Assembly: GCF_002964045.1 (NCBI RefSeq)
Contig: NZ_POPB01000311.1
Location: forward strand, 1-34,967
DNA from: Streptococcus suis
GTDB lineage: Bacteria; Bacillota; Bacilli; Lactobacillales; Streptococcaceae
Direction of reading: 5' to 3'
DNA: 34,967 nucleotides
Made by a program: the position numbers and the translations under genes. The notes below the pieces were generated by a model that searched no databases, was not told where the DNA came from, and saw nothing but the letters and a program-made list of their open reading frames with translations. Of this stretch, positions 16,779 to 34,816 are shown one piece after another (position 1 is the first letter of the stretch; every line of letters begins with the position of its first letter).

Positions 16779-16863
16779 GAGGGAATTAGAAATCTTGGAG
16801 GAAAATTGGATGCTCTCATTGAAAATAGAATCTTAAATGATTGCAAAAACAATCCAATTGCTG

Positions 16864-16895
16864 TTTACAACTCACGCACCCGTGTAGGGTGCGAC
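16864..16895 (-). repeat. Degenerate leader-distal terminal repeat
   Basis: This last repeat keeps the stem-loop but has TTTACAACTCAC where the others have ATTTCAATCCAC. In crRNA terms the handle is corrupted, as is usual for the trailer-end repeat, and it confirms that the array is transcribed leftward. Confidence 0.9.
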
Positions 16896-18284
16896 TTTTC
16901 CAGAAATACTGCGGAGCATCCACAATCTTATTTCAATCCACGCACCCGTGTAGGGTGCGACTTACAGAATCCGAGACTGGTGAAATCACATACGGTATTT
17001 CAATCCACGCACCCGTGTAGGGTGCGACATGAGTTTCAAGTTATCAACAATCAAAATATCAATTTCAATCCACGCACCCGTGTAGGGTGCGACCCGCAGT
17101 TGACCTTGAAGACCTCAAGTGTCTATCTATTTCAATCCACGCACCCGTGTAGGGTGCGACTATTCAACAACGTTTTGTAAGTCAATACCGATAATTTCAA
17201 TCCACGCACCCGTGTAGGGTGCGACAAAATCTTGTTATTTCTATTAGTATCAAGATAAATTTCAATCCACGCACCCGTGTAGGGTGCGACGCGAAAATAA
17301 CACCGTCCAAACCGTTCCGAACTGAATTTCAATCCACGCACCCGTGTAGGGTGCGACTTGTTGTGTAATCTCTGCCAACAAGCCCTCTGGATTTCAATCC
17401 ACGCACCCGTGTAGGGTGCGACCAAATTCTAGCGGTGCAACAAGTTCTTCGCCTCATTTCAATCCACGCACCCGTGTAGGGTGCGACGGTAAAGCAAGAG
17501 GAAAAACCGCAAATAAAGAAAGATTTCAATCCACGCACCCGTGTAGGGTGCGACCGTGGTCACAACAGTCGTCGACAGGAAATCTAAAAATTTCAATCCA
17601 CGCACCCGTGTAGGGTGCGACGTTGGAAGCGCAAGATGTATTTCACTACGTTAAAATTTCAATCCACGCACCCGTGTAGGGTGCGACGTATGCTCGAGCG
17701 TGGAGCGATTGAGTTCGCTGAATTTCAATCCACGCACCCGTGTAGGGTGCGACAACAGTGTCAAAAGCCTTGTACCTGCTCATTTTGTTATTTCAATCCA
17801 CGCACCCGTGTAGGGTGCGACTACAGCTTCATAACCGCCTGTGTAGCCGTAATTTTATTTCAATCCACGCACCCGTGTAGGGTGCGACTTTCACGTTCAT
17901 AGCGTTTAAGCCTTTCTATACTGATTTCAATCCACGCACCCGTGTAGGGTGCGACCACAAAAGGAGTACGGCAGTGCGGTTATTTAAAATTTCAATCCAC
18001 GCACCCGTGTAGGGTGCGACTGTGACTTCGGTCAGCGGTACTACTAGCATCGAGATTTCAATCCACGCACCCGTGTAGGGTGCGACTTATACGTTTAGTT
18101 GTTGTATCAATGACAATCCAAATTTCAATCCACGCACCCGTGTAGGGTGCGACAGAGAGTACAGGGATGAATGCCTCAGATATTATATTTCAATCCACGC
18201 ACCCGTGTAGGGTGCGACTGCCGTGCGTTGATTTGCACAACGATTCTGGATTATTTCAATCCACGCACCCGTGTAGGGTGCGAC
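16864..18284 (-). CRISPR. Type I-C CRISPR array, 22 repeats and 21 spacers
   Basis: The 32-bp repeat starts ATTTCAATCCACGCACCC on the plus strand; the crRNA strand is minus, since the leader and cas2 lie to the right. In crRNA orientation the repeat has a 7-bp stem CGCACCC/GGGTGCG, loop TACAC, and the 11-nt handle TGGATTGAAAT, a classic type I-C layout. Repeats 2-22 (counted from 16864) read identical to me. Spacers are 33-36 bp (8 of 33, 5 of 34, 7 of 35, 1 of 36). I see no duplicated spacers. Protospacer sources cannot be named without a search. Confidence 0.98.
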
Positions 18285-18429: not shown

Positions 18430-18723
18430 CTATAACAGAAGGACTCCCTGATCTGGATCATAACTAGTATCTCGTCCAATAGTTTCCACTCGATTTTGCC
18501 AGTTTTTTCCTAGCATATAAAAGCGGATACTGTCCTGCTCCTTATCAATGATTTCCAATAATCTATTCTTTACTTCAACAAATTCTGCTGGAGTGACTGA
18601 ACATTCGAAGACAGAATGTTGCACACGTTGACCAAAATCAACGCACAACTTGGCTACTTTTCTCAACCGCTTTCGTCCAACTGCTGTTTCTGTATTGACA
18701 TCATAGGTCACTAATACCATCAT
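18430..18723 (-). CDS. cas2: CRISPR-associated endoribonuclease Cas2 (type I-C)
   Basis: A 97-residue ferredoxin-fold Cas2: 'MVLVTYDV' beta-1 with conserved Asp8, a basic helix 'RKRLRKVAKLC', 'QHSVFECSV' and 'DSIRFYML'. It bridges two Cas1 dimers in the spacer-integration complex. Begins 10 bp after cas1 with GGAG 7 nt upstream; two ATGs are adjacent and either could serve. Confidence 0.96.
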   Translation of the reverse strand: MMVLVTYDVNTETAVGRKRLRKVAKLCVDFGQRVQHSVFECSVTPAEFVEVKNRLLEIIDKEQDSIRFYMLGKNWQNRVETIGRDTSYDPDQGVLLL

Positions 18724-18733
18724 AATATAGCTC

Positions 18734-19759
18734 CTATATCATAAACGGAGGATAGCTATCCAACTCGCCTCGAATAGCTTTTGCAAGTAATTGAGCTTGG
18801 ACATAAGGCAACAACATTAATTTGACTTTTTCCTGCGTAAATGGATGTTCAACTTCTGTATGTTTTCGCTTTTGCCAGGCTTCAATGAAAACTGCTCTGC
18901 CTTTTTCAGTCAACAAAACACTTGCATTTTCTTTAATATCAAAATGCTTTTTCGTTAGCTGGCCTCTATTGATTAAGGAAAATACAAAACGATCAACAAT
19001 GAAGGAACGAAATTCCTCAACTAAATCCAAAGCCAGACTCGCACGACCAGGACGGTCTGTGTGGAAAAATCCAACATAACTATCCAGACCAACCGCTTCA
19101 AGTGCTGATTGGCATTCATAGGTCAACAGACTGTAACCGAAGGAAAGTAAGGCATTCACACAATCCAACGGAGGCCTTCTACTGCGACCATTGAATTGAA
19201 ACGTCTCCTTATCAGCCAAAACCATTTCGTTGAATAGGCGGAAATAGTGATTCGCTGCCTGCCCCTCAATTCCCAGAAGAGTTTCCTTATCCAGAGTTGT
19301 TTGGACCATTTCCACTGCCCAAGTTAGCTCTGTATTGACCTCTTCAAATAGATTTCCATCCACCCTATCTTTATGATCTCTACGAAATCGCAACAGGTAT
19401 TTTCTGGAATTAGAGATTTTAGATAGAATAAAACGTTTGGCAAATTCCAGAGATAAAGCATCATCAGCTAAGCGATACTGTTGCCGTCTTAACAGAACAT
19501 TTCCATTCGTCGGACCTACAAACCGGCCACAAAATCGCCCTTGAGGTGTATGGAAGGAAAGGTTAATCTGGTGTTCTGCACACAGTTCAATTAAAGACGG
19601 AGAGGCTCCTAGATAGGAAAAACACACAATACCATCTATAATGCGATAGGGAAAGCGGTGAACGGCAACGCCATTTTGCTTAATAACAATGTTGTCCCGC
19701 TCTCTAGTTAAATAAAAATCTTCCTGAGTCAGATAGAGTGTATTCAGCAGTTTCTTCAT
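18734..19759 (-). CDS. cas1: CRISPR-associated endonuclease Cas1 (type I-C)
   Basis: A 341-residue Cas1. N-terminal beta domain about 1-90, then the helical catalytic domain with Glu165 (GIEGQAA), His233 (GFFHTDRPG) and Glu248 (LDLVEEFR). It is the integrase that inserts spacers at the leader end. The start ATG overlaps the cas4 stop (ATGA) and follows GGAGGGGTT. Confidence 0.97.
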   Translation of the reverse strand: MKKLLNTLYLTQEDFYLTRERDNIVIKQNGVAVHRFPYRIIDGIVCFSYLGASPSLIELCAEHQINLSFHTPQGRFCGRFVGPTNGNVLLRRQQYRLADDALSLEFAKRFILSKISNSRKYLLRFRRDHKDRVDGNLFEEVNTELTWAVEMVQTTLDKETLLGIEGQAANHYFRLFNEMVLADKETFQFNGRSRRPPLDCVNALLSFGYSLLTYECQSALEAVGLDSYVGFFHTDRPGRASLALDLVEEFRSFIVDRFVFSLINRGQLTKKHFDIKENASVLLTEKGRAVFIEAWQKRKHTEVEHPFTQEKVKLMLLPYVQAQLLAKAIRGELDSYPPFMI

Positions 19760-20427
19760 AACCCCTCCTCGCTTACCATGGATTGTTGGATATAATGAGC
19801 AACACTACGCGATTTTTTACTCAATCTAGGCATACAAATATCTACCAGTGAGCAAAGTTGGCAATTCTTAAAATACTCAGCCTTTGGCAAATCTCTTTTC
19901 TGATAAAGGTCATGCATTTGACTAGCTAATTCAACAACCAGATGCCTCAATTCAGCACTAATGCTAATTTCTACTTTTTTATTGACACTATGATAGTACA
20001 AATAGCCCTTATCAATTTTGCAACCAAGTGTTTCCTCCAAACACATGGTCTGTGCTACCAATTGAACAATATCCCGTTCATCTTTTTTCGGCTTACCACG
20101 CTTATATTCAACGATAGTTGGAATCCATTTACCACGTTTTCCACTCAGTGAAATGCCCGCCTCATCTTTATGGAATTCCACAACATCCAAAATCCCGTAA
20201 AGACCTAACTCCTGAGACGATACCTGCATCGCCCTAGAAATCAAGAAATCCTTACGTTTTTCCTTGATATAGGGATTGTCAGCTTTTTGATGAAGAAACT
20301 GACCGTGAGTGGTTGCCTCATTTTCAGCCCATTCTTGATAAATATGGATCAAAGCCCATTGACGTTTGCAGAACTGAAAATGTTGAATACCAGACAACAT
20401 CAAATAATCATCTTCTGCATAGGCCAT
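19756..20427 (-). CDS. cas4: CRISPR-associated exonuclease Cas4
   Basis: A 223-residue RecB-type nuclease. Four cluster cysteines are Cys20, Cys189, Cys192 and Cys198; nuclease residues include His46, Asp81 (GILDVVE) and Glu107-Lys109 (VEYKRG), followed by a Q-rich motif III region. It trims prespacers and selects for PAM together with Cas1-Cas2. Separated from cas7 by 1 nt, overlapping cas1 by 4. Confidence 0.96.
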   Translation of the reverse strand: MAYAEDDYLMLSGIQHFQFCKRQWALIHIYQEWAENEATTHGQFLHQKADNPYIKEKRKDFLISRAMQVSSQELGLYGILDVVEFHKDEAGISLSGKRGKWIPTIVEYKRGKPKKDERDIVQLVAQTMCLEETLGCKIDKGYLYYHSVNKKVEISISAELRHLVVELASQMHDLYQKRDLPKAEYFKNCQLCSLVDICMPRLSKKSRSVAHYIQQSMVSEEGL

Positions 20428-20428
20428 C

Positions 20429-21280
20429 TTACAATCCTTCTAAAATCTCAACTTTCAATCCCTTAACCTGAAACTCAGCTAGCTCTTTCTGATTCAGTCC
20501 AATCGCATACTCTTCATAGCTTGACTTGTCTTGTTTTTCCTTATCAAATTCTAACAAGTCGAAGACACGTGCACTGGAAACATTGCCCAGTTTATTGGAA
20601 TGAGTAAACCAGAAAACCTCACGAACACGCATAGAGCCTTCTGGACGAGCTGATGACGCATCATTTTCAAATAGGGTAATCAGGGTTTCTTTCAAAACCT
20701 CCGCATCTTCTGCCGTAAAGCCTGTCTTCTCTGCAAAATAAGCATTGATAGACCCCTTGATAACATACACACCGTAGTCTACAAAATGCTTGGTTCCCAT
20801 GGTGTCAGAAGAACGACCTCCTGCTTTCTTAGGTTCCACACCATTTGTACTTCTAGTAATCTGCAAACTAGAAATGATAATTGGTTCTAACGAATGAGCC
20901 ATGCTAACAGAAACTGGACCACGGATAGCAAAAGAACGGTCCTTCAAATACGTGAAGACCTGACCAAATGAGCGAACATCTAGCCAGATTTGATTGGCCT
21001 TTTCATTGATTTCCTCATCTGATTCTTTTCCAGAAAATTGAACTTTGAAGCGTTTTTCTAAAGAATTTAACCCATCTTCAATCCGATCGTTTGCCTGGAC
21101 AAAAATCTTATGCCCCATATCCTGCATCCGGTTACGAATTTTCCGCTTAATCGCAACATCACTAATAATCCCTTGGTTCTTAGCATTCGTACGTGGCATA
21201 TTTCCTGATAAAGGATCGCCATTAGCATTGGCCTCACGTACCTCAATGGTCACCATAAAATCTATTTTCTGTTCCAACAT
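20429..21280 (-). CDS. cas7: Type I-C Cascade backbone protein Cas7 (Csd2)
   Basis: A 283-residue Cas7/Csd2 protein with the type I-C N-terminus 'VTIEVREANANGDPLSGNMPRTN' and 'MGTKHFVDYGVYVIKGSINAYFAEKTGF'. Seven copies form the helical crRNA filament of the effector. Start 3 bp after the cas8c stop; ribosome site AGTGAGGAA lies in the cas8c end. Confidence 0.96.
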   Translation of the reverse strand: MLEQKIDFMVTIEVREANANGDPLSGNMPRTNAKNQGIISDVAIKRKIRNRMQDMGHKIFVQANDRIEDGLNSLEKRFKVQFSGKESDEEINEKANQIWLDVRSFGQVFTYLKDRSFAIRGPVSVSMAHSLEPIIISSLQITRSTNGVEPKKAGGRSSDTMGTKHFVDYGVYVIKGSINAYFAEKTGFTAEDAEVLKETLITLFENDASSARPEGSMRVREVFWFTHSNKLGNVSSARVFDLLEFDKEKQDKSSYEEYAIGLNQKELAEFQVKGLKVEILEGL

Positions 21281-21283
21281 TCT

Positions 21284-21679
21284 CTATTCCTCACTTTCAG
21301 TTTTTTCTTGTTTTGTGTAAAAGTATTGCTTCTCAGCATAATAACCAAATATAAAGCGATAGTCTAATGGGTCATTTATTCCACGTTCTTGCATCAAAGG
21401 CCCTAATAACTCCATGATTTCTTCCCGCTCTTTGTCCAATTTCTTAAAGATGCCCGGACTGTTTAACTTGACCGCCTCTTCATAAGGTTTGATTTTATTT
21501 GTCAAATTCATCATCAACTTAGCTGGTTGGCTGGTATAGGCAGTCCAATAACGTTCCGCATTGGTGATTCGATCATTTTTTGAACCGTCTAACTGATACC
21601 GTTGAAGCTCTAACAATTCAAAAATCGCCAACAATCGTCCAAACAAATAGGAACGATCCTTATTCTTGTGGTCTAACAT
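21284..21679 (-). CDS. cas11c: Cas11c small subunit by internal initiation within cas8c
   Basis: In frame inside cas8c, AAGGAGG (21691-21697) lies 11 nt upstream of an ATG (21677-21679), giving a 131-residue helical protein identical to the Cas8c C-terminus ('MLDHKNKDRSYLFGRLLAIF' onward). Type I-C systems in other bacteria make Cas11c this way, at about this size. The ribosome site encodes Lys-Glu-Glu in Cas8c. The exact start is inferred; a TTG lies 9 nt upstream of the ATG. Confidence 0.7.
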   Translation of the reverse strand: MLDHKNKDRSYLFGRLLAIFELLELQRYQLDGSKNDRITNAERYWTAYTSQPAKLMMNLTNKIKPYEEAVKLNSPGIFKKLDKEREEIMELLGPLMQERGINDPLDYRFIFGYYAEKQYFYTKQEKTESEE

Positions 21680-23185
21680 CGGTGTCAACTCCTCCTTATT
21701 AGTTTTATGTAAAAGGGCCAAGGAAACAAATAATACCTTGTTCCATGTGTTCCCATATCTCTGACGTTGCTTGATATTGTCTTTTAATTTACCAAGAATC
21801 GTATCCGGAACATCTTTCCCGTCGATCATACTAGTAGCCAATTTTTGGAACTGATCACTCTTGAACTTGTCGTTATCCAGTTCCAAGAATCGACCTCTGT
21901 CTACCCCATAGGCTGCCAAAATAATATCTATATAACTCGGTGGACACTCAGCATACTCTCCATTTTTCTTTTTAAACGGCCAAGAATACTTGTCCTGCCA
22001 TCTGTTGAGATTATCTAGTAATTGTGAGACAGCTAGTTGTCTAAAGTATTTAAGGGCAACACGACCATCATTTGTCTTGTTAATAATAGCAACATAATAA
22101 GTTGCTCCATCACCAAATTCTTTTTTACCGTGGATAAAGGCAGAGCGAATTTTCTTATTGACCTCTGTTACTTGAAATTTTGTGCTATCATCTGAAGATA
22201 TTTCTCCAAAATCAAACATTCCACCATCTTCAATCTCTTCCACTTTCGGAGTGGTTATATCTAATTGAGTCTCATTAGTCAAATCATCACTAAACCAATT
22301 GATCAAATGCTGTCCTGACCCTAACCATGCGTGTGTATGTTCATTCTCCAATAAAAACTTTGCCATCAAATGAATCTTTTCCGAAGTCTGATTCCCAACT
22401 GTAAAGACTTCCTCTCGCTCCTTGAAACGTCCTTTATAGGTTTCAATGTTATTGCTGACAGAAATTAGTTTGGCATTGCCAATCAACCCGCGGTGTTTGG
22501 CAGCCAGCACTTCTTGCTTCCCACTAATATTACAGATGATATCTGCCTGCTGATTCGATTCCACATATGAAATGTAAGCCTTATGTAAGTCCAAATAGTT
22601 GGTAACAGAAACGGTTTGATAGCCAATGAATTGATCAATTTTAAATTCCAGAAAAGCAGTTGATAGGTCAACAGTCTTTTTACTATCATCACTGTTCAGA
22701 TAGGTTACTTTTAACCCCTCTCTACTGGTTACTCTACTAAAAAGGGACTGGACAATCTTCTCTATAAAGTCATCCTGTAGCAGAAAATGCTGGATATGAC
22801 TCAAAAATGTTTTAACTTCTTGTTCCTGACACTGAGAAATCCATTCATTCAACTGACGATGATAGGTATCATACTGTCCTTGGTCTATCTCTGAAAGATA
22901 GTAAGTTAATTTATCAACCAACGGGTGCGGAGCTGGATTTTTCCCCGCACGAGCCACCGAGTCAGAAGTCACCGGAAAGATGATACTCTCGCCATCAGCC
23001 ATAAAATCTGCCTTCATGAAATTTCCTTCATTGTCTAGTAGGACGGCTATCGTATCCTTTCCACTTGAACGACGACTGGTATGGTAAATCGGTAGGAGGG
23101 GATTGGTTGATTTTTGAGCGTTGTCAACCCAGCCTGTGTCCTCAGCTGCTTCATAAGCCCGTAAAAGTGCTGTAAAAAAATCCAT
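21284..23185 (-). CDS. cas8c: Type I-C Cascade large subunit Cas8c (Csd1)
   Basis: A 633-residue Csd1/Cas8c protein of normal length. Type-typical stretches are 'MDFFTALLRAYEAAEDTG', 'PIYHTSRRSSGKDTIAVLLD', 'WLGSGQHLINWFSDD' and the C-terminal helical domain from about residue 500. It recognises the PAM and holds the target. Its ATG shares one base with the cas5 stop (TAATG). An in-frame internal ribosome site would also yield Cas11c. Confidence 0.96.
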   Translation of the reverse strand: MDFFTALLRAYEAAEDTGWVDNAQKSTNPLLPIYHTSRRSSGKDTIAVLLDNEGNFMKADFMADGESIIFPVTSDSVARAGKNPAPHPLVDKLTYYLSEIDQGQYDTYHRQLNEWISQCQEQEVKTFLSHIQHFLLQDDFIEKIVQSLFSRVTSREGLKVTYLNSDDSKKTVDLSTAFLEFKIDQFIGYQTVSVTNYLDLHKAYISYVESNQQADIICNISGKQEVLAAKHRGLIGNAKLISVSNNIETYKGRFKEREEVFTVGNQTSEKIHLMAKFLLENEHTHAWLGSGQHLINWFSDDLTNETQLDITTPKVEEIEDGGMFDFGEISSDDSTKFQVTEVNKKIRSAFIHGKKEFGDGATYYVAIINKTNDGRVALKYFRQLAVSQLLDNLNRWQDKYSWPFKKKNGEYAECPPSYIDIILAAYGVDRGRFLELDNDKFKSDQFQKLATSMIDGKDVPDTILGKLKDNIKQRQRYGNTWNKVLFVSLALLHKTNKEELTPMLDHKNKDRSYLFGRLLAIFELLELQRYQLDGSKNDRITNAERYWTAYTSQPAKLMMNLTNKIKPYEEAVKLNSPGIFKKLDKEREEIMELLGPLMQERGINDPLDYRFIFGYYAEKQYFYTKQEKTESEE

Positions 23186-23922
23186 TAGCGACCTCCTTCC
23201 TCATTTTCTTGATCTCGTGAGTAAATATCAAATTCTTCTTCTACTGACCTGATGTCACCAGAGGTCTTAAACACATAATCAGAGAGAGTATTGACAATCT
23301 CGCATTCTTCTTGCTCCTTAAACCGTATGACACTGTTTTCCATGACGGTCTTTGTAAAATAGGAACGAAGCGGTTGATTAGACTCTGTTGGATAGGCAAA
23401 TGAATGAAACATAATTCCAAAATCAATGGTCTTATCTGCATATTCTAATTTAGCTGTTTCATATTCTTCCTGGCTAATCGCTTCAACTAAACCAAGACAT
23501 TCCCTGGTTCCAAGAAAGACATCTCGGCGTCCTCCTTTTTTAATAGACCTTTCCATAATCGCCTCATGTTTATTTGGCAGACGATCATGCACTAAATCTG
23601 GGCGATTTTCATTCCAGATAAAGTGAAATTTGACCAGGTATTCCACATTGCTGAGGTAAGAGACATAACTTAAGTCAGCTCCATAATTAGCCAACAAGGC
23701 TCGGACTCCATGAAGTTCCGTTTGAATTTGATTGACAATCTTCACTTCTGTCACAACATTTGTGATAGTTGGTTTATAGTAAACCGCATCCACCACACCT
23801 TTTAATGCCTGTCGAGTAGGAACGGCATAGCTTGACCTTTCTCCACCACCCTTGGTAGCTGGATTTGTAAAGAGAGCCAGGTCGCCCTTCACCCGCAGGT
23901 AAAAATTCCGTGAACGATACAA
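23185..23922 (-). CDS. cas5: Cas5 (Cas5c/d), type I-C pre-crRNA processing endonuclease
   Basis: A 245-residue Cas5d-type protein ('YRSRNFYLRVKGDLALFTNP', 'KGGGERSSYAVPTRQALKGVVDA', 'KGGRRDVFLGTRECLG'). In type I-C it replaces Cas6, cutting the pre-crRNA at the base of the repeat stem and holding the 11-nt handle. No ATG is available: TTG codons lie at 23926-23928 and 23920-23922. I chose the second because GGAGG is 9 nt upstream of it against 3 nt for the first, and because I remember S. pyogenes Cas5 beginning MYRSR. First cas gene of the cascade-adaptation operon. Confidence 0.93.
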   Translation of the reverse strand: MYRSRNFYLRVKGDLALFTNPATKGGGERSSYAVPTRQALKGVVDAVYYKPTITNVVTEVKIVNQIQTELHGVRALLANYGADLSYVSYLSNVEYLVKFHFIWNENRPDLVHDRLPNKHEAIMERSIKKGGRRDVFLGTRECLGLVEAISQEEYETAKLEYADKTIDFGIMFHSFAYPTESNQPLRSYFTKTVMENSVIRFKEQEECEIVNTLSDYVFKTSGDIRSVEEEFDIYSRDQENEEGGR

Positions 23923-24079
23923 AATCAAGTTCCTCCTTTTCTTTTTTTATCATAGTAAAGATAGACTACAACAGAAATGTACAACCTAAGTAACAGGATA
24001 GCTAGCGGTGGCACCATAGCCTTCAACTACAGTAACCACTGACTAACTCGTAAAAATAATTTTTTTCAAATGACCGAAA
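23923..24079 (-). other. Leader between the small peptide gene and cas5
   Basis: No gene. I see no convincing rho-independent terminator on the minus strand, so transcripts from the promoter at 24218 may read into cas5. A TATGAT sequence about 26 nt before the cas5 ribosome site could be a weak promoter but lacks a -35. A loosely paired GCTA...TAGC region around 24010-24030 is present. Confidence 0.45.
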
Positions 24080-24181
24080 TTACTTATCCTTATTTCCTGA
24101 ACGGCAAGCAAAAACCAAGTAAGCTACGGCCGTTAGAATAGCTGGTAATCGCTCCAACAATTTGTCTATTAGTTGAATCAT
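24080..24181 (-). CDS. 33-residue hydrophobic peptide, candidate CRISPR-repressed toxin (CreT-like)
   Basis: ATG at 24179-24181, TAA at 24080-24082. The peptide has an amphipathic N-terminus (MIQLIDKLLERLP), a hydrophobic helix at about residues 12-26 and a short charged tail ending in KDK, the shape of membrane-acting type I toxins such as Fst, though I see no sequence match. A strong AAGGAGGT lies 17 nt upstream of the ATG; between them 5'-TATAC-agaa-GTATA-3' can fold and bring the two closer. It sits between cas3 and cas5, and its promoter carries a site matched by the crRNA-like RNA next door. Alternatives: a leader peptide for cas5, or chance. Toxicity is inference. Confidence 0.55.
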   Translation of the reverse strand: MIQLIDKLLERLPAILTAVAYLVFACRSGNKDK

Positions 24182-24217
24182 ATACTTCTGTATAGGTACC
24201 TCCTTATTGTGATATCT

Positions 24218-24249
24218 ATTATATTATCAATATTGCAATTCATAGTAAA
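24218..24249 (-). promoter_or_regulatory. Leftward promoter for the small peptide and probably cas5
   Basis: Perfect TATAAT on the minus strand at 24218-24223. The -35 is poor: ACTATG at 17-bp spacing, or TTTACT (24244-24249) at 20 bp. Predicted start about 24211, leaving a short leader to AAGGAGGT. The -35 region lies within the predicted Cascade target (24239-24275), so binding there would block RNA polymerase. Confidence 0.6.
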
Positions 24250-24275
24250 GTGAAACAATATTTGCATTGTTTGTT
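24239..24275 (+). promoter_or_regulatory. Predicted Cascade target site with TTC PAM
   Basis: TTC (24239-24241), the type I-C PAM, is followed by ATAGTAAAGTGAAACA (24242-24257). The pseudo-spacer of the nearby crRNA-like RNA starts ATAGTTAAGTGGAACA. The match is 14 of 16, with the mismatches at positions 6 and 12 exactly, bases that type I effectors do not read. Beyond position 16 the match is random, which should allow binding but not Cas3 recruitment or cleavage. A 34-bp footprint would end beside the -35 of the RNA's own promoter. Confidence 0.8.
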
Positions 24276-24304
24276 TTGAAAGAGAACATTATCTGTGGTA
24301 TAAT
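24276..24304 (+). promoter_or_regulatory. Strong promoter for the crRNA-like RNA
   Basis: TTGAAA (24276-24281), 17-bp spacer, TATAAT (24299-24304), with TGG just before the -10 (extended -10). It is the best promoter in the CRISPR locus and points away from cas5, towards the cas3 3' end, where there is no gene on this strand. The predicted start is at about 24311. Confidence 0.85.
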
Positions 24305-24312
24305 TAATTCAT

Positions 24313-24340
24313 CATGGTCTTTATCCATGCGGATTGAAAT
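24313..24340 (+). repeat. Diverged single CRISPR repeat (stem plus handle)
   Basis: Stem arms CATGG and CCATG are followed without a gap by CGGATTGAAAT. In the array the arms are CGCACCC and GGGTGCG followed by TGGATTGAAAT. Ten of the 11 handle bases are identical, while stem and loop changed together. It lies on the opposite strand to the array and cas genes. Confidence 0.85.
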
Positions 24341-24377
24341 ATAGTTAAGTGGAACAGCACAAAGGCTGGCAGATCTT

Positions 24378-24419
24378 TCTATCTTACCTTACAAGATAGA
24401 GAGGTTTGCCTCTTTTTTT
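24378..24419 (+). terminator. Terminator of the crRNA-like RNA, overlapping the cas3 3' end
   Basis: TCTATCTT (24378-24385) pairs with AAGATAGA (24393-24400); then AGAGG (24400-24404) pairs with CCTCT (24409-24413), followed by TTTTTT (24414-24419). The second stem is a classic rho-independent terminator. On the other strand these bases encode the last residues and stop codon of Cas3, so the two transcripts converge and overlap here. Confidence 0.82.
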
Positions 24420-26824
24420 AATCCAAGCTTCTCGTCATCATAATACTCTTCTTGCAGTATTAAGACCTGTCCCTCCAAATAATAGCGAACAGCTTGTAAT
24501 CGGCTATCATACTGTCTCAGATTGACTGTAAAGGGCTGTAGGCTCTTGAGGATTTGTTTGATCTCAACTAAATCTTGCCCCCTTGGATAAGGATTGCTTA
24601 CCAGCCGTTCTTCCAAGTCAGCAATTTTCTCTGCTCCGTCACCATATGGAACTAGGACGCCAATACTATCATCTTTGATTAAATCTATTTTCTGCCCTGC
24701 CGTCTTGAATGACTGTCTGACTTTGCAGTTCGGACTTCCTTTGAAGCTACTTAAGCTGAGATAATCATAGACAGATTCATTGGTAGACAGTGGGTAATCA
24801 AATTGTGTTTTATTGTCAGCATAGTAACGTTCAAAAAATAAACGATTCAAGGCCCCGACATCAATCGGTGAACTTTCTTTTATCAAAATAGTTTCAGTCG
24901 CCTCTTTTTTATGCTTGATTTCCTTCAGATAGGTGAGACTTTCTTCCTCCTTGGATAAATTTATCAATGTTACCTGACCTAAATCACGTTTTCCTTCACG
25001 GTTACAGCGGCCAGCTGCTTGGACAATTGAATCTAGTCCTGCATAAGACCGAACTACTCGTTCAAAATCAACATCCACTCCTGCTTCAATCAATTGTGTA
25101 CTGATACAAATTAGGGGAACATCGTCTTTCAATTGATTTTTGATTTCTTGTATGACATCTAGACGGTGCTGGGCACACATATTGGTCGAGAGATGATAAA
25201 GTGGTCTGTCTGTTTGGAATTCTAATAGGCTATACAGTTTTTCTACTGCTGGTTTGGTATTGAGAATGACAAGCGTGGAAGTTTCTTCTTCCAAGATAAA
25301 ACTTGCTAAGTCAGACAATCGGGAAACTGCATTGCTTTCATCGAACTTGCGGAGTTCTGTCCTCTTAAACACCTCTTGCTCTTCAGCGGTTAAGGTGACA
25401 ATATCTGCCTGCTCTGCTATTTCCCCACCATATAAGAGTCGGTGGCTTATAGAAACCGAATCATAGGCAGGTTGAGTCGCTGTACAGAGGACAACTGTAG
25501 CCCCCATGACACGACTCAAAAAATTCATGGTCAGATTAAAGAGCGTGGTGACCTCAATAGGAAGGGACTGGACTTCATCTAAAATCAAGATGCTGTTTGC
25601 TAAGCTGGAGAAGCGTCTGATATTAGCTGACTTGGTCTTAAAGAGGGTTTGAAAGAACTGGACCATGGTGGTAAGGACAACTGGGCTATCCCAGGTATCA
25701 ATCAGGTAGTCGATCATTAGACCATTGACTGTTTCCTCTCCATACTCCTCATTCTGAGGTGTGGCATCTTGTTGTTCTCTGACTAGGTTAGAATGGTGCT
25801 CTAAGACACCCTCCTTGCCAATAATTTCCTGAATCGCTGCTGCATTTTGTTCTAAAACGGACAAAAAAGGCGTCATATAGAAGAAACGTTCTTTACCTTT
25901 CTGTGTCAGTTGATGAACTGCGTAACGAAGGGACAGGTTGGTTTTTCCCGCACCCGTCGGAAGATTGAGGCGATAAATACCTGAAGAATCAGTAGCTCCA
26001 CGTTGTTTAACCCGCTCTCCCAAGGCCGTTCGAATACGGTTTAGTTCAGTGGTTGGATTTCTAAAACCTGCATAAACGTCTTCCACTGATTGAAAATACT
26101 TCTGAACGAGTTCACTATTTTCCTCAATAGTTTTTGGCTCGATAACAAGGTTATAGGCATTAATCGTATCCAAAATATCCGCATTCTTCAAATAAGACAA
26201 GTAGAGCCGAATAAAACAAGAACTATAAAAAGCCGATTCGCTATCATCGTTGATACATAATTTCGCCCAAGCGGTTTGAAAATTTCCAAATGATTTTGTC
26301 ACTAAATCATCTACATTTTGATAGCCAAAGCTAGGTAGTTGTTCTTCCAATAACTTAGCATAGGCCCTTATATCTTCTTCATAATGATAGTCTGCTCGTG
26401 GCTGACCGATTCGATAAAACAACTTACTATACCGATATCTACCTGCTCCTTCCATATCCTCAGGTAGAGGGACATCATAAACGCCGTGGTGGGCAGATAT
26501 AATGTAGGCTATTATTTCACGAAAAAGCTGGGCATCATTTGAGGTTTTTCCTGAACGCCGAAAGACTTGCTCAATCTCTTGAAATAGGTAACGAGCTCCC
26601 GCATACGAATGATCTACGTGTAGACTTGGCTCCTCTTTCATTTTTTTCTGAAAAAGCCTATCACTCTTGCCCAAATCATGATAAAGTCCTAGTAAGAACA
26701 AAATATCCCCTTGGCCAATCGTTTCCGCAGATGCTTTGGCCTCTTTGGCAACGTTGAACAGGTGGTCCTCTAGATATTGAAATCGACTTTCTCTTTCTCT
26801 CTTTTCAATATGCGCTAAATTCAT
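24389..26824 (-). CDS. cas3: CRISPR-associated helicase/nuclease Cas3 (HD fused), type I-C
   Basis: An 811-residue Cas3 with an N-terminal HD nuclease and a superfamily 2 helicase. HD residues: 'GLYHDLGKSD' at about 47-56, 'VDHSYAGAR' and 'SAHHG'. Helicase: Walker A LPTGAGKTN at about 288-296, Walker B LILDEVQ at about 413-419, 'LCTATQP', 'STQLIEAGVDVDF' and 'QAAGRCNREG'. Cascade recruits it to unwind and degrade target DNA. Two ATGs are in frame; AGGAGG is 1 nt before the first (26828-26830) and 7 nt before the second (26822-26824), so I chose the second. It is separated from cas5 by the 460-bp regulatory gap and has its own promoter. Confidence 0.95.
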   Translation of the reverse strand: MNLAHIEKRERESRFQYLEDHLFNVAKEAKASAETIGQGDILFLLGLYHDLGKSDRLFQKKMKEEPSLHVDHSYAGARYLFQEIEQVFRRSGKTSNDAQLFREIIAYIISAHHGVYDVPLPEDMEGAGRYRYSKLFYRIGQPRADYHYEEDIRAYAKLLEEQLPSFGYQNVDDLVTKSFGNFQTAWAKLCINDDSESAFYSSCFIRLYLSYLKNADILDTINAYNLVIEPKTIEENSELVQKYFQSVEDVYAGFRNPTTELNRIRTALGERVKQRGATDSSGIYRLNLPTGAGKTNLSLRYAVHQLTQKGKERFFYMTPFLSVLEQNAAAIQEIIGKEGVLEHHSNLVREQQDATPQNEEYGEETVNGLMIDYLIDTWDSPVVLTTMVQFFQTLFKTKSANIRRFSSLANSILILDEVQSLPIEVTTLFNLTMNFLSRVMGATVVLCTATQPAYDSVSISHRLLYGGEIAEQADIVTLTAEEQEVFKRTELRKFDESNAVSRLSDLASFILEEETSTLVILNTKPAVEKLYSLLEFQTDRPLYHLSTNMCAQHRLDVIQEIKNQLKDDVPLICISTQLIEAGVDVDFERVVRSYAGLDSIVQAAGRCNREGKRDLGQVTLINLSKEEESLTYLKEIKHKKEATETILIKESSPIDVGALNRLFFERYYADNKTQFDYPLSTNESVYDYLSLSSFKGSPNCKVRQSFKTAGQKIDLIKDDSIGVLVPYGDGAEKIADLEERLVSNPYPRGQDLVEIKQILKSLQPFTVNLRQYDSRLQAVRYYLEGQVLILQEEYYDDEKLGLKKEANLSIL

Positions 26825-26850
26825 TCTCATGCCTCCTGTTTTATAGTATT

Positions 26851-32060: not shown

Positions 32061-32772
32061 GATCAGAACCTGTATTCACAAGTAAAGTGCTTTGATATAA
32101 GAGATAGTTTTTCGCTAATCAAGGCAGTTTTTTGAGACTGGGCTCAAGCCTAGCGCCACTTCTCAGAGTTTGGGTCAACATCTCAGCGCAGTGGTTGATT
32201 GCTCTAACAATCTGGGAGATTGTTAGAGGTAGGAAATAAAACAAACGAAGTTTGTGTCTAAACAGTCCAGTGGAGTGAAACAGTTTGGGAAACTGTTTCA
32301 GCCTGAGCCTAAAAATGAAAAAGCGAGGTAAAAAGGTTGGAGATAAGATTTGTGAAGCAAATCTCTGCAATTCGTGTTTTACACTCCAAATCCGACCTCT
32401 ACGTCTGTTGCGAACAAGTTCTCTTCATTTCCAACCTCCAACAGTCACTACTCTGACTTAACGATTGATGCGAACTTTGTTCGCTCTATCTCCAACCTCC
32501 AAAGGTTCCCCGAACCTTTGGAGCTATGCGGGGGTGGGAGTTCAAAAGGTCTGGGAGACCTTTTGAAGTAGGAAATACAAGCTGACGGTAGTCAGATCAC
32601 ATAATTCAAAGTCTGTGGATAGACTGTTTCAGGTCAACAACTTGAAACGAAAATTTGTTGACGAACTCGTTTTGAGACCAATTGAGTTCTTTCTCACTCC
32701 AAAAAAACGGACGATGAATAGCTGAAAAAATAGCCTTAGATAAAAGTGCTGTACTGTAAATATGGGTTAGTA
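32061..32772. repeat. Non-coding region of modular hairpin repeats downstream of pepV
   Basis: No gene. A series of near-perfect inverted repeats with 3-nt loops: 32202-32228 (12-bp arms, GGG), ACAAAC-GAA-GTTTGT at 32241-32255, 32277-32299 (10-bp arms, GGG), 32346-32364, GCGAAC-TTT-GTTCGC at 32470-32484, 32497-32523 (12-bp arms, CCC) and 32541-32567 (12-bp arms, GGG). Linkers such as ATCTCCAACCTCC recur. Modules before about 32350 are in reverse orientation, those after are forward. They belong to the same family as the array at 34225-34775. From 32568 to 32772 I see nothing clear. Confidence 0.7.
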
Positions 32773-34224: not shown

Positions 34225-34775
34225 CAAGTGGAAACTTCGTTTCCCTATTTCCAACTTCAAATAATTTCATCATTATTTGAACTCGTTTTGCCGTACTTCA
34301 GTTATGCCTGCGGCTGTTGACACAAACTTCGTTTGTCTCATCTCCGACCTTCAAAGGTTCCCCGAACAGTTGTTGACACAAACTCTGTTTGTTTCATTTC
34401 CAACCTTCAACAGTCACTACTCGGACTGTTTTGACACAAACTTCGTTTGTTTCATCTCCAACCTTCAAAGGTTCCCCGAACAGTTGTTGACACAAACTCT
34501 GTTTGTTTCATCTCCAACCTTCAAAGGTTCCCCGAACAGTTGTTGACACAAACTCTGTTTGTTTCATTTCCAACCTTCAACAGTCACTACTATGACTGTT
34601 TTGACACAAACTTCGTTTGTCTCATCTCTGACCTTCAAAGGTTCCCCGAACAGTTGTTGACACAAACTCTGTTTGTTTCATTTCCAACCTTCAACAGTCA
34701 CTACTATGACTGTTTTGACACAAACTTCGTTTGTCTCATCTCCGACCTTCAAAGGTTCCCCGAACCTTTGAAGCT
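34225..34775. repeat. Tandem array of 56/58-bp modular hairpin units (BOX-like)
   Basis: Eight units begin with GACACAAAC at 34319, 34375, 34433, 34489, 34545, 34603, 34659 and 34717. Each opens with ACAAAC-NNN-GTTTGT and a TCATYTCCRACCTT linker. Two types alternate as A B A A B A B A: type A (56 bp) continues CAAAGGTTCCCCGAACAG, type B (58 bp) CAACAGTCACTACTNNGACTG. The last A unit ends in a full CAAAGGTTC-CCC-GAACCTTTG palindrome. Degenerate units precede it (GGAAAC-TTC-GTTTCC at 34230-34244; a TCAAATAAT palindrome at 34257-34280). Frames seen here are repeat artefacts. Resembles tandem boxB units of pneumococcal BOX elements in design, not in sequence. Confidence 0.8.
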
Positions 34776-34816
34776 AGTAATAAAAGTAAACCAAAAGACT
34801 AGATTAAAGTAAGTCT

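Follow-up and report, generated by a model that had tools for sequence, protein, structure and literature searches.

Why should a single, diverged CRISPR repeat stand between cas3 and cas5 of a streptococcal type I-C locus, on the strand opposite the cas genes and behind a promoter of its own? The question arose from an initial annotation of 34,967 nucleotides of Streptococcus suis DNA, referred to here as the window. Its minus strand carries a complete-looking type I-C locus in the order cas3 (24389..26830, stop codon at 24389-24391), cas5 (23185..23928; Cas5c/Cas5d, the expected processing enzyme and a Cascade subunit), the other Cascade genes cas8c and cas7 (20429..23185), cas4, cas1 and cas2 (18430..20427), and a CRISPR array (16841..18284) with a type I-C repeat, the handle TGGATTGAAAT and 21 spacers. 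A gap of about 460 bp separates cas3 from cas5, and the solitary crRNA-like element lies inside it on the plus strand, where it had been placed initially. Elsewhere, the window displays families of 56-58-bp tandem-like repeats at 34317-34776 and 32424-32526, with diverged copies about 1.9 kb off.

The element begins with a predicted promoter at 24276..24304 on the plus strand, TTGAAA-17-TATAAT with an extended -10 (TG), which agrees with the consensus at 11 of 12 bases as annotated; the region 23850-24500 as a whole holds one promoter-like site versus a shuffle mean of 2.2, and thus no excess of such sites. The diverged repeat follows at 24313..24340 on the same strand. Its CATGG (24313-24317) is able to pair with CCATG (24325-24329), and the 11-nt handle, CGGATTGAAAT (24330-24340), was again found to be identical to that of the array at 10 of 11 positions. 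The window contains 23 copies of GGATTGAAAT, namely 21 in the array, one in the element and one at 131-140; this last copy, on the minus strand and outside the array, looks like chance (0.23 expected). The terminator was also recovered, as an intrinsic terminator at 24368..24418 (plus strand) with an 18-pair stem at 24368-24410 and a T-run, overlapping the 3' end of cas3. The putative 109-nt precursor folds better than all of 200 shuffles (z -4.2), an effect carried by the terminator. The initial annotation had also stated that paired changes kept the hairpin of the repeat. Across 15 aligned element repeats, excluding near-copies and the array-type repeat of S. pseudoporcinus, 97.4% of the cells pair and three of the six pairs change on both sides, but the hairpin is absent from the minimum-energy fold of the full 109-nt precursor. 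The isolated repeat does fold into it, as well as 62 of 200 shuffles do. A search of 23900-24450 against Rfam gave no match. At the level of sequence, an element with promoter, repeat, handle and terminator as described is confirmed.

The stretch following the handle had been described as a pseudo-spacer. A sequence is indeed present there, but its target and a peptide gene next to that target had been overlooked. The guide part at 24341..24356 (plus strand) matches 24242..24257 of the same strand; its only mismatches are at guide positions 6 and 12, the remaining 14 positions being all in agreement, and the target is preceded by the motif TTC (24239..24241, plus strand), the presumed PAM. The second-longest run of guide matches in the window is 9, and TTC together with guide positions 1-5 and 7-11 occurs at a single site in the 2.5-Mb genome. 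Placed beside TTC in the same way, the 21 spacers of the array score no more than 10 of 14 within the gap and no more than 11 of 14 across the window, versus 14 of 14 for the guide. A near-match at 23952 (run of 9, with ATC instead of TTC) was rejected, as S. plurextorum and genome G248 keep that sequence without TTC. The guide-target pair in the window is, in our view, strongly supported. Positions 6 and 12 are left unpaired in CreA (PMC8501985), and TTC was shown to be the PAM of a Xanthomonas type I-C system (PMC8406640). For the window itself, array spacers compared with phages gave five records for four spacers, omitting three unannotated 'Bacteriophage sp.' matches and a duplicate SMP record; with the flanks CTC (two records), CTT, TTC and TGC, they decide neither for nor against TTC as the local PAM. 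Spacer 18 of this array matches the Streptococcus suis phages SMP and Javan573 at 33 of 35 bases.

The element is shared by relatives of the window. A type I-C Cas5 was found in 26 of 284 Streptococcus genomes, 19 of which carry the element, and the seven others have gaps of 50-151 bp; the conservation that the initial annotation had proposed to check was seen, and among element-bearing loci we encountered no case in which the handle had diverged while its flanks were conserved, the seven genomes being without the whole element. A model of the repeat gave 18 strong matches in the 284 genomes, all of them in I-C carriers, a strength that is by construction because most of these 18 fed the model, and weak matches (8e-5 to 0.01) in 11 more genomes. 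By eye, the short gaps of L040, L047, L048 and L049 retain guide- and flank-like pieces with no repeat, as if an element had been deleted. In S. pseudoporcinus (L006), the repeat ahead of the guide is of the array type and has further repeat-like sequence upstream of it, and the peptide gene described below has lost its Shine-Dalgarno sequence; this may be a mini-array, repaired or ancestral in appearance, next to a peptide gene that is fading.

We compared 20 distinct loci, the 19 streptococcal ones and that of Enterococcus columbae. All 19 streptococcal guides have a TTC-flanked partner in their cas3-cas5 gap, matching at 12-14 of 15 scored positions, a score equalled by none of 300 shuffled guides in any of these loci. 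Counted over the 19 loci, which hold 13 distinct guides and omit E. columbae, whose target lies outside its gap, positions 1-5 and 7-11 match in 18-19 loci, position 6 in seven, position 12 in four, positions 13-16 in 15-18 and position 17 in six; since partners were chosen by the other 15 positions, the choice favours matches at those and leaves positions 6 and 12 free to match or not. No guide scores better in another gap than in its own, and most score clearly worse there, near-identical guides excepted; guide and target have changed together. The guide of S. henryi reaches 14 in the gap of S. plurextorum, equal to its score at home. The E. columbae gap holds no guide partner (best TTC score 8, with 172 of 300 shuffles as good), and a 16-position TTC match abuts the -10 of a predicted cas3 promoter.

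Outside the genus, Cas5 was found in 32 of 395 genomes, two of which turned out to be Streptococcus, and 30 loci were returned. Handle-like sites were sought here up to 1.4 kb from cas5 and on a single strand; absences in this search mean little. A handle search of loci L018-L023, from Clostridia and relatives, showed none. Sites in L062, L066, L068, L083 and L084 were rejected, as their best runs were 6-8 and TTC was missing. Six non-Streptococcus genomes were picked for a plausible element or a near Cas5, one of them matching E. columbae in guide and Cas5. The element occurs in at least six genomes of other genera. Five of the six have a TTC target at 13-14 of 14 positions (shuffles as good: 0, 2, 0, 0 and 0 of 500), and that of G457 is weaker (12 of 14; 5 of 500 shuffles as good). 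In G463 (L119, about 2100-2300), the element shares the strand of the cas genes and sits upstream of cas3, and its target is at the start of cas3.

What, then, lies under the target in the window? Between target and cas5 we found an unannotated gene for a small hydrophobic peptide, a candidate toxin, at 24080..24181 on the minus strand, with 33 amino acids from an ATG and an alternative start ATA at 24193. It is preceded by the Shine-Dalgarno sequence AAGGAGG (24199..24205, minus strand), which stands 17 nt from the ATG in the window and in G248, and by a weak predicted leftward promoter at 24221..24249 (minus strand; TTTACT-17-TAATAT with TG, 8 of 12), the predicted -35 of which falls inside the guide target. 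A stricter promoter scan did not detect this leftward promoter. Palindromic stretches lie between peptide gene and cas5 (23930-24070 of the window, minus strand) and likewise in the gaps of L001, L026 and L003-L007; they vary among species and might be an attenuator or terminator.

Related peptides of 33-45 amino acids occur at 10 streptococcal loci, with one P and one I invariant in the alignment. Eight of them have a hydropathy of 1.70-2.62, and the values of L014 (0.98) and L031 (1.14) are low for a membrane span. The third codon position accounts for 30 of 63 differences in four separate pairs (p 0.013). Their starts are odd, being TTG in three, with ATA, ATT or ATC as the best candidates in others. 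Searched through the 284 genomes of the genus, the peptide profile gave 10 strong matches, exactly the 10 I-C loci; it also matches three database proteins, one of them from Streptococcus suis. Pfam and NCBIfam hold no family for the window peptide, and hence no KilA-N, and six peptides from other loci gave one weak match to DUF4547 (0.11) in the domain search. A distant kinship to the phage family phrog_3399 was found for all three locus peptides scanned (4.4e-4 to 2.3e-3), and a weaker profile match in G175 (6e-6) leads to phrog_3399 as well, together with many streptococcal phage peptides; a tblastn search of the phage collection with the S. plurextorum peptide gave no match. We regard the peptide as likely to be a phage-derived membrane toxin. 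The family phrog_3399 itself comprises a small streptococcal phage protein (L132-L136), seen also in phages phi3396, PH10 and phiARI0923 (L152-L154), and when three of the 20 phage records found were viewed, its stretch was seen past the lysis genes, close to the prophage end. We know of no CRISPR guide over phrog_3399.

The reading that we favour, and hold to be fairly probable, is that of a guard resembling CreTA, with a peptide toxin kept repressed by type I-C Cascade. The crRNA-like RNA would be made from its own promoter and trimmed by Cas5 below the hairpin, and Cascade would bind the short match over the predicted leftward -35 without cutting by Cas3. The type I-C system described in PMC8406640 required a match of at least 27 bp to kill, so a match as short as this one should be bound and not cut. 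Bound Cascade would keep the peptide gene, the likely toxin, off; were Cascade lost, or blocked by an anti-CRISPR for example, the cell would make the peptide and come to harm. Of these steps, the toxicity of the peptide is the one of which we are less sure. As the window has no other clear promoter before cas5, the same repression may also limit cas5-cas8c-cas7.

This last point leads to the alternative with the most weight, which we nevertheless regard as unlikely, namely that the element is a cas self-repressor only, resembling CreR, with the cas5-operon promoter as its target and with a peptide that does no harm, being the first cistron, a leader or an accessory membrane protein. The lack of a clear cas5 promoter after the peptide gene fits it, as do the target at cas3 in the E. 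columbae locus and in G463 and the fact that cas5 is the next gene after the target in nine of the 19 streptococcal carriers, at a distance of 66-69 bp in eight of them and 135 bp in the ninth. The peptide gene intervenes in the other 10, including the window, and here the distances point the other way: in eight of these, the target lies about 57-92 bp from the peptide and 252-312 bp from cas5. Also against this alternative, the peptide is conserved as a protein, and its strong matches in 284 genomes are confined to I-C loci. In the two remaining loci, L014 and L031, extra DNA puts the target 1099 and 404 bp from the peptide, respectively. The inserted stretch in L031 (G049; cas-strand 405-530) contains a second hydrophobic ORF of 41 amino acids with no match in Pfam, PHROGs or NCBIfam, and that in L014 (S. 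thoraltensis) contains broken ORFs that appear transposase-like by eye.

It is improbable that the toxin is instead an RNA, as in CreT, with a short ORF that sequesters tRNA or ribosomes and a peptide sequence of no relevance. CreT RNAs are indeed described as carrying a mini-ORF with strong translation signals (PMC8501985, PMC10097628), and the start scan found a Shine-Dalgarno-like AAGGAG or GGAGG before the ORF in seven of the 10 peptide loci. Conservation of the peptide as a protein over its 33-45 amino acids speaks against a toxin acting as RNA, however, as does its phage protein relative.

Still less probable is the idea that the element is array debris, a functionless leftover repeat. 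A single diverged repeat could be such a leftover, S. pseudoporcinus has an array-type repeat in the same place, and the element is missing from seven of 26 genomes. Debris would hardly retain a covarying stem, nor would it agree with a TTC-flanked target in 20 of 20 loci, with guide and target changing together and the pattern at positions 6 and 12. The initial annotation had argued for selection as a Cascade-type guide from the handle and stem; at the level of sequence, this is strongly supported by the presence of the element in 19 of 26 Streptococcus genomes and in at least six genomes of other genera, by the covarying stem and by the 20 target partners. That the element is an anti-CRISPR RNA (Racr) which a mobile element left behind is scarcely credible: a solitary repeat with its own promoter has that appearance, and PMC10651486 reports a prophage Racr of type I-C, but the element has a conserved place inside the cas locus, no exact match of its pattern was found in viral contigs, its gap DNA has no match in the phage and plasmid collections, and its guide is matched, something that a decoy can do without.

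Returning to the guard reading, the Cas5 tree gives some indication of its origin. The 10 peptide loci and the peptide-less locus of S. merionis fall into one group with moderate support (87/90), and two changes on the tree suffice for the peptide label, a number so low that none of 500 shuffles reached it. Among the non-streptococcal rows, the nearest three are all cas-aimed; of the streptococcal rows outside the group, 15 in number, eight are cas-aimed and seven element-less; in this labelling, 'none' for L060, L067 and L083 comes from the handle search on one strand within 1.4 kb of cas5, and row L063 was counted as cas-aimed despite an ORF fragment between target and cas5. With the nearest outside rows cas-aimed and the other streptococcal rows cas-aimed or element-less, the aim at cas genes appears to be the older state. 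There was probably a single gain of the peptide, in a lineage with cas-aimed relatives, followed by its loss in S. merionis, and the guard thus likely evolved from a cas self-repressor. Such an ORF fragment lies between guide target and cas5 in L118 (4330-4954; G290), which belongs to another family; it is possibly another guarded gene that has decayed.

If this reading is correct, CRISPR addiction and CRISPR self-regulation would extend to type I-C systems and to streptococci. How a regulator turned into an addiction module could be traced in a natural series of loci, with the guide aimed at cas3, at cas5 or at the peptide gene, or with the element lost. Such a locus would have its own means of sensing anti-CRISPRs that act against type I-C, and deletion of cas genes in strains carrying it would call for caution. 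The 19 streptococcal guide-target pairs are also data on how little pairing I-C Cascade may require for repression without cutting.

It remains to set this locus beside known systems. The initial annotation, which pointed to CreA antitoxins and to cas-repressing mini-CRISPRs, knew of no streptococcal type I-C case; none appears by title or beginning of the abstract among the literature matches listed, which does not prove novelty in print. A 2023 survey of standalone repeats in Nucleic Acids Research may already list some of these loci. Both of the analogies appear apt, as judged from the element family, in which cas-aimed forms occur beside a CreA-like, peptide-aimed form, that of the window.

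CreTA modules of types I-B and I-F (PMC8501985, PMC10097628) resemble our locus in three respects: a diverged repeat in a crRNA-like RNA that is encoded within a type I cas locus; an incomplete match beside a PAM that falls on the promoter of a small toxic gene, where for our locus the promoter is predicted, TTC is the presumed PAM and the gene is a candidate toxin; and pairing at positions 1-5 and 7-11, with 6 and 12 spared. The Acinetobacter module described there also adjoins cas3. The streptococcal locus differs in being of type I-C and in its candidate toxin, a conserved, protein-coding hydrophobic peptide as opposed to a toxic RNA; furthermore, the CreA of Haloarcula hispanica has two repeats, whereas the streptococcal element has one, followed by a terminator. 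CrePA (PMC12737573) would share with it a protein toxin of phage descent under the control of CreA and Cascade; the toxin of CrePA is a KilA-N protein, whereas the streptococcal peptide has 33-45 amino acids and no KilA-N domain. CreR is resembled by the peptide-less relatives and the cas3-aimed forms; PMC13131331 lists types I-B, I-E and V-A for it, a list without I-C, and the gene that comes first under the target in the window is that of the peptide, the candidate toxin, and not cas5. Our interpretation further drew on PMC9458426 and PMC12948488. Racr has in common with the element a solitary repeat with a promoter, but is a phage RNA, whereas the streptococcal element is part of a host cas locus and has a matched guide. 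The phage family phrog_3399, annotated with no function, is a distant sequence relative of the locus peptide from streptococcal phages and differs in its place near prophage ends, beyond the lysis genes. We therefore class the locus neither as CrePA, as KilA-N is missing, nor as plain CreR. With a confidence only slightly better than even, we suggest that an old type I-C RNA repressing its own cas genes has become the antitoxin of a phage-derived membrane-peptide toxin, its guide being rewritten to follow the gene held (cas3, cas5, toxin), which would make this a third CRISPR-guarded class beside the RNA toxin CreT and the KilA-N toxin CreP.
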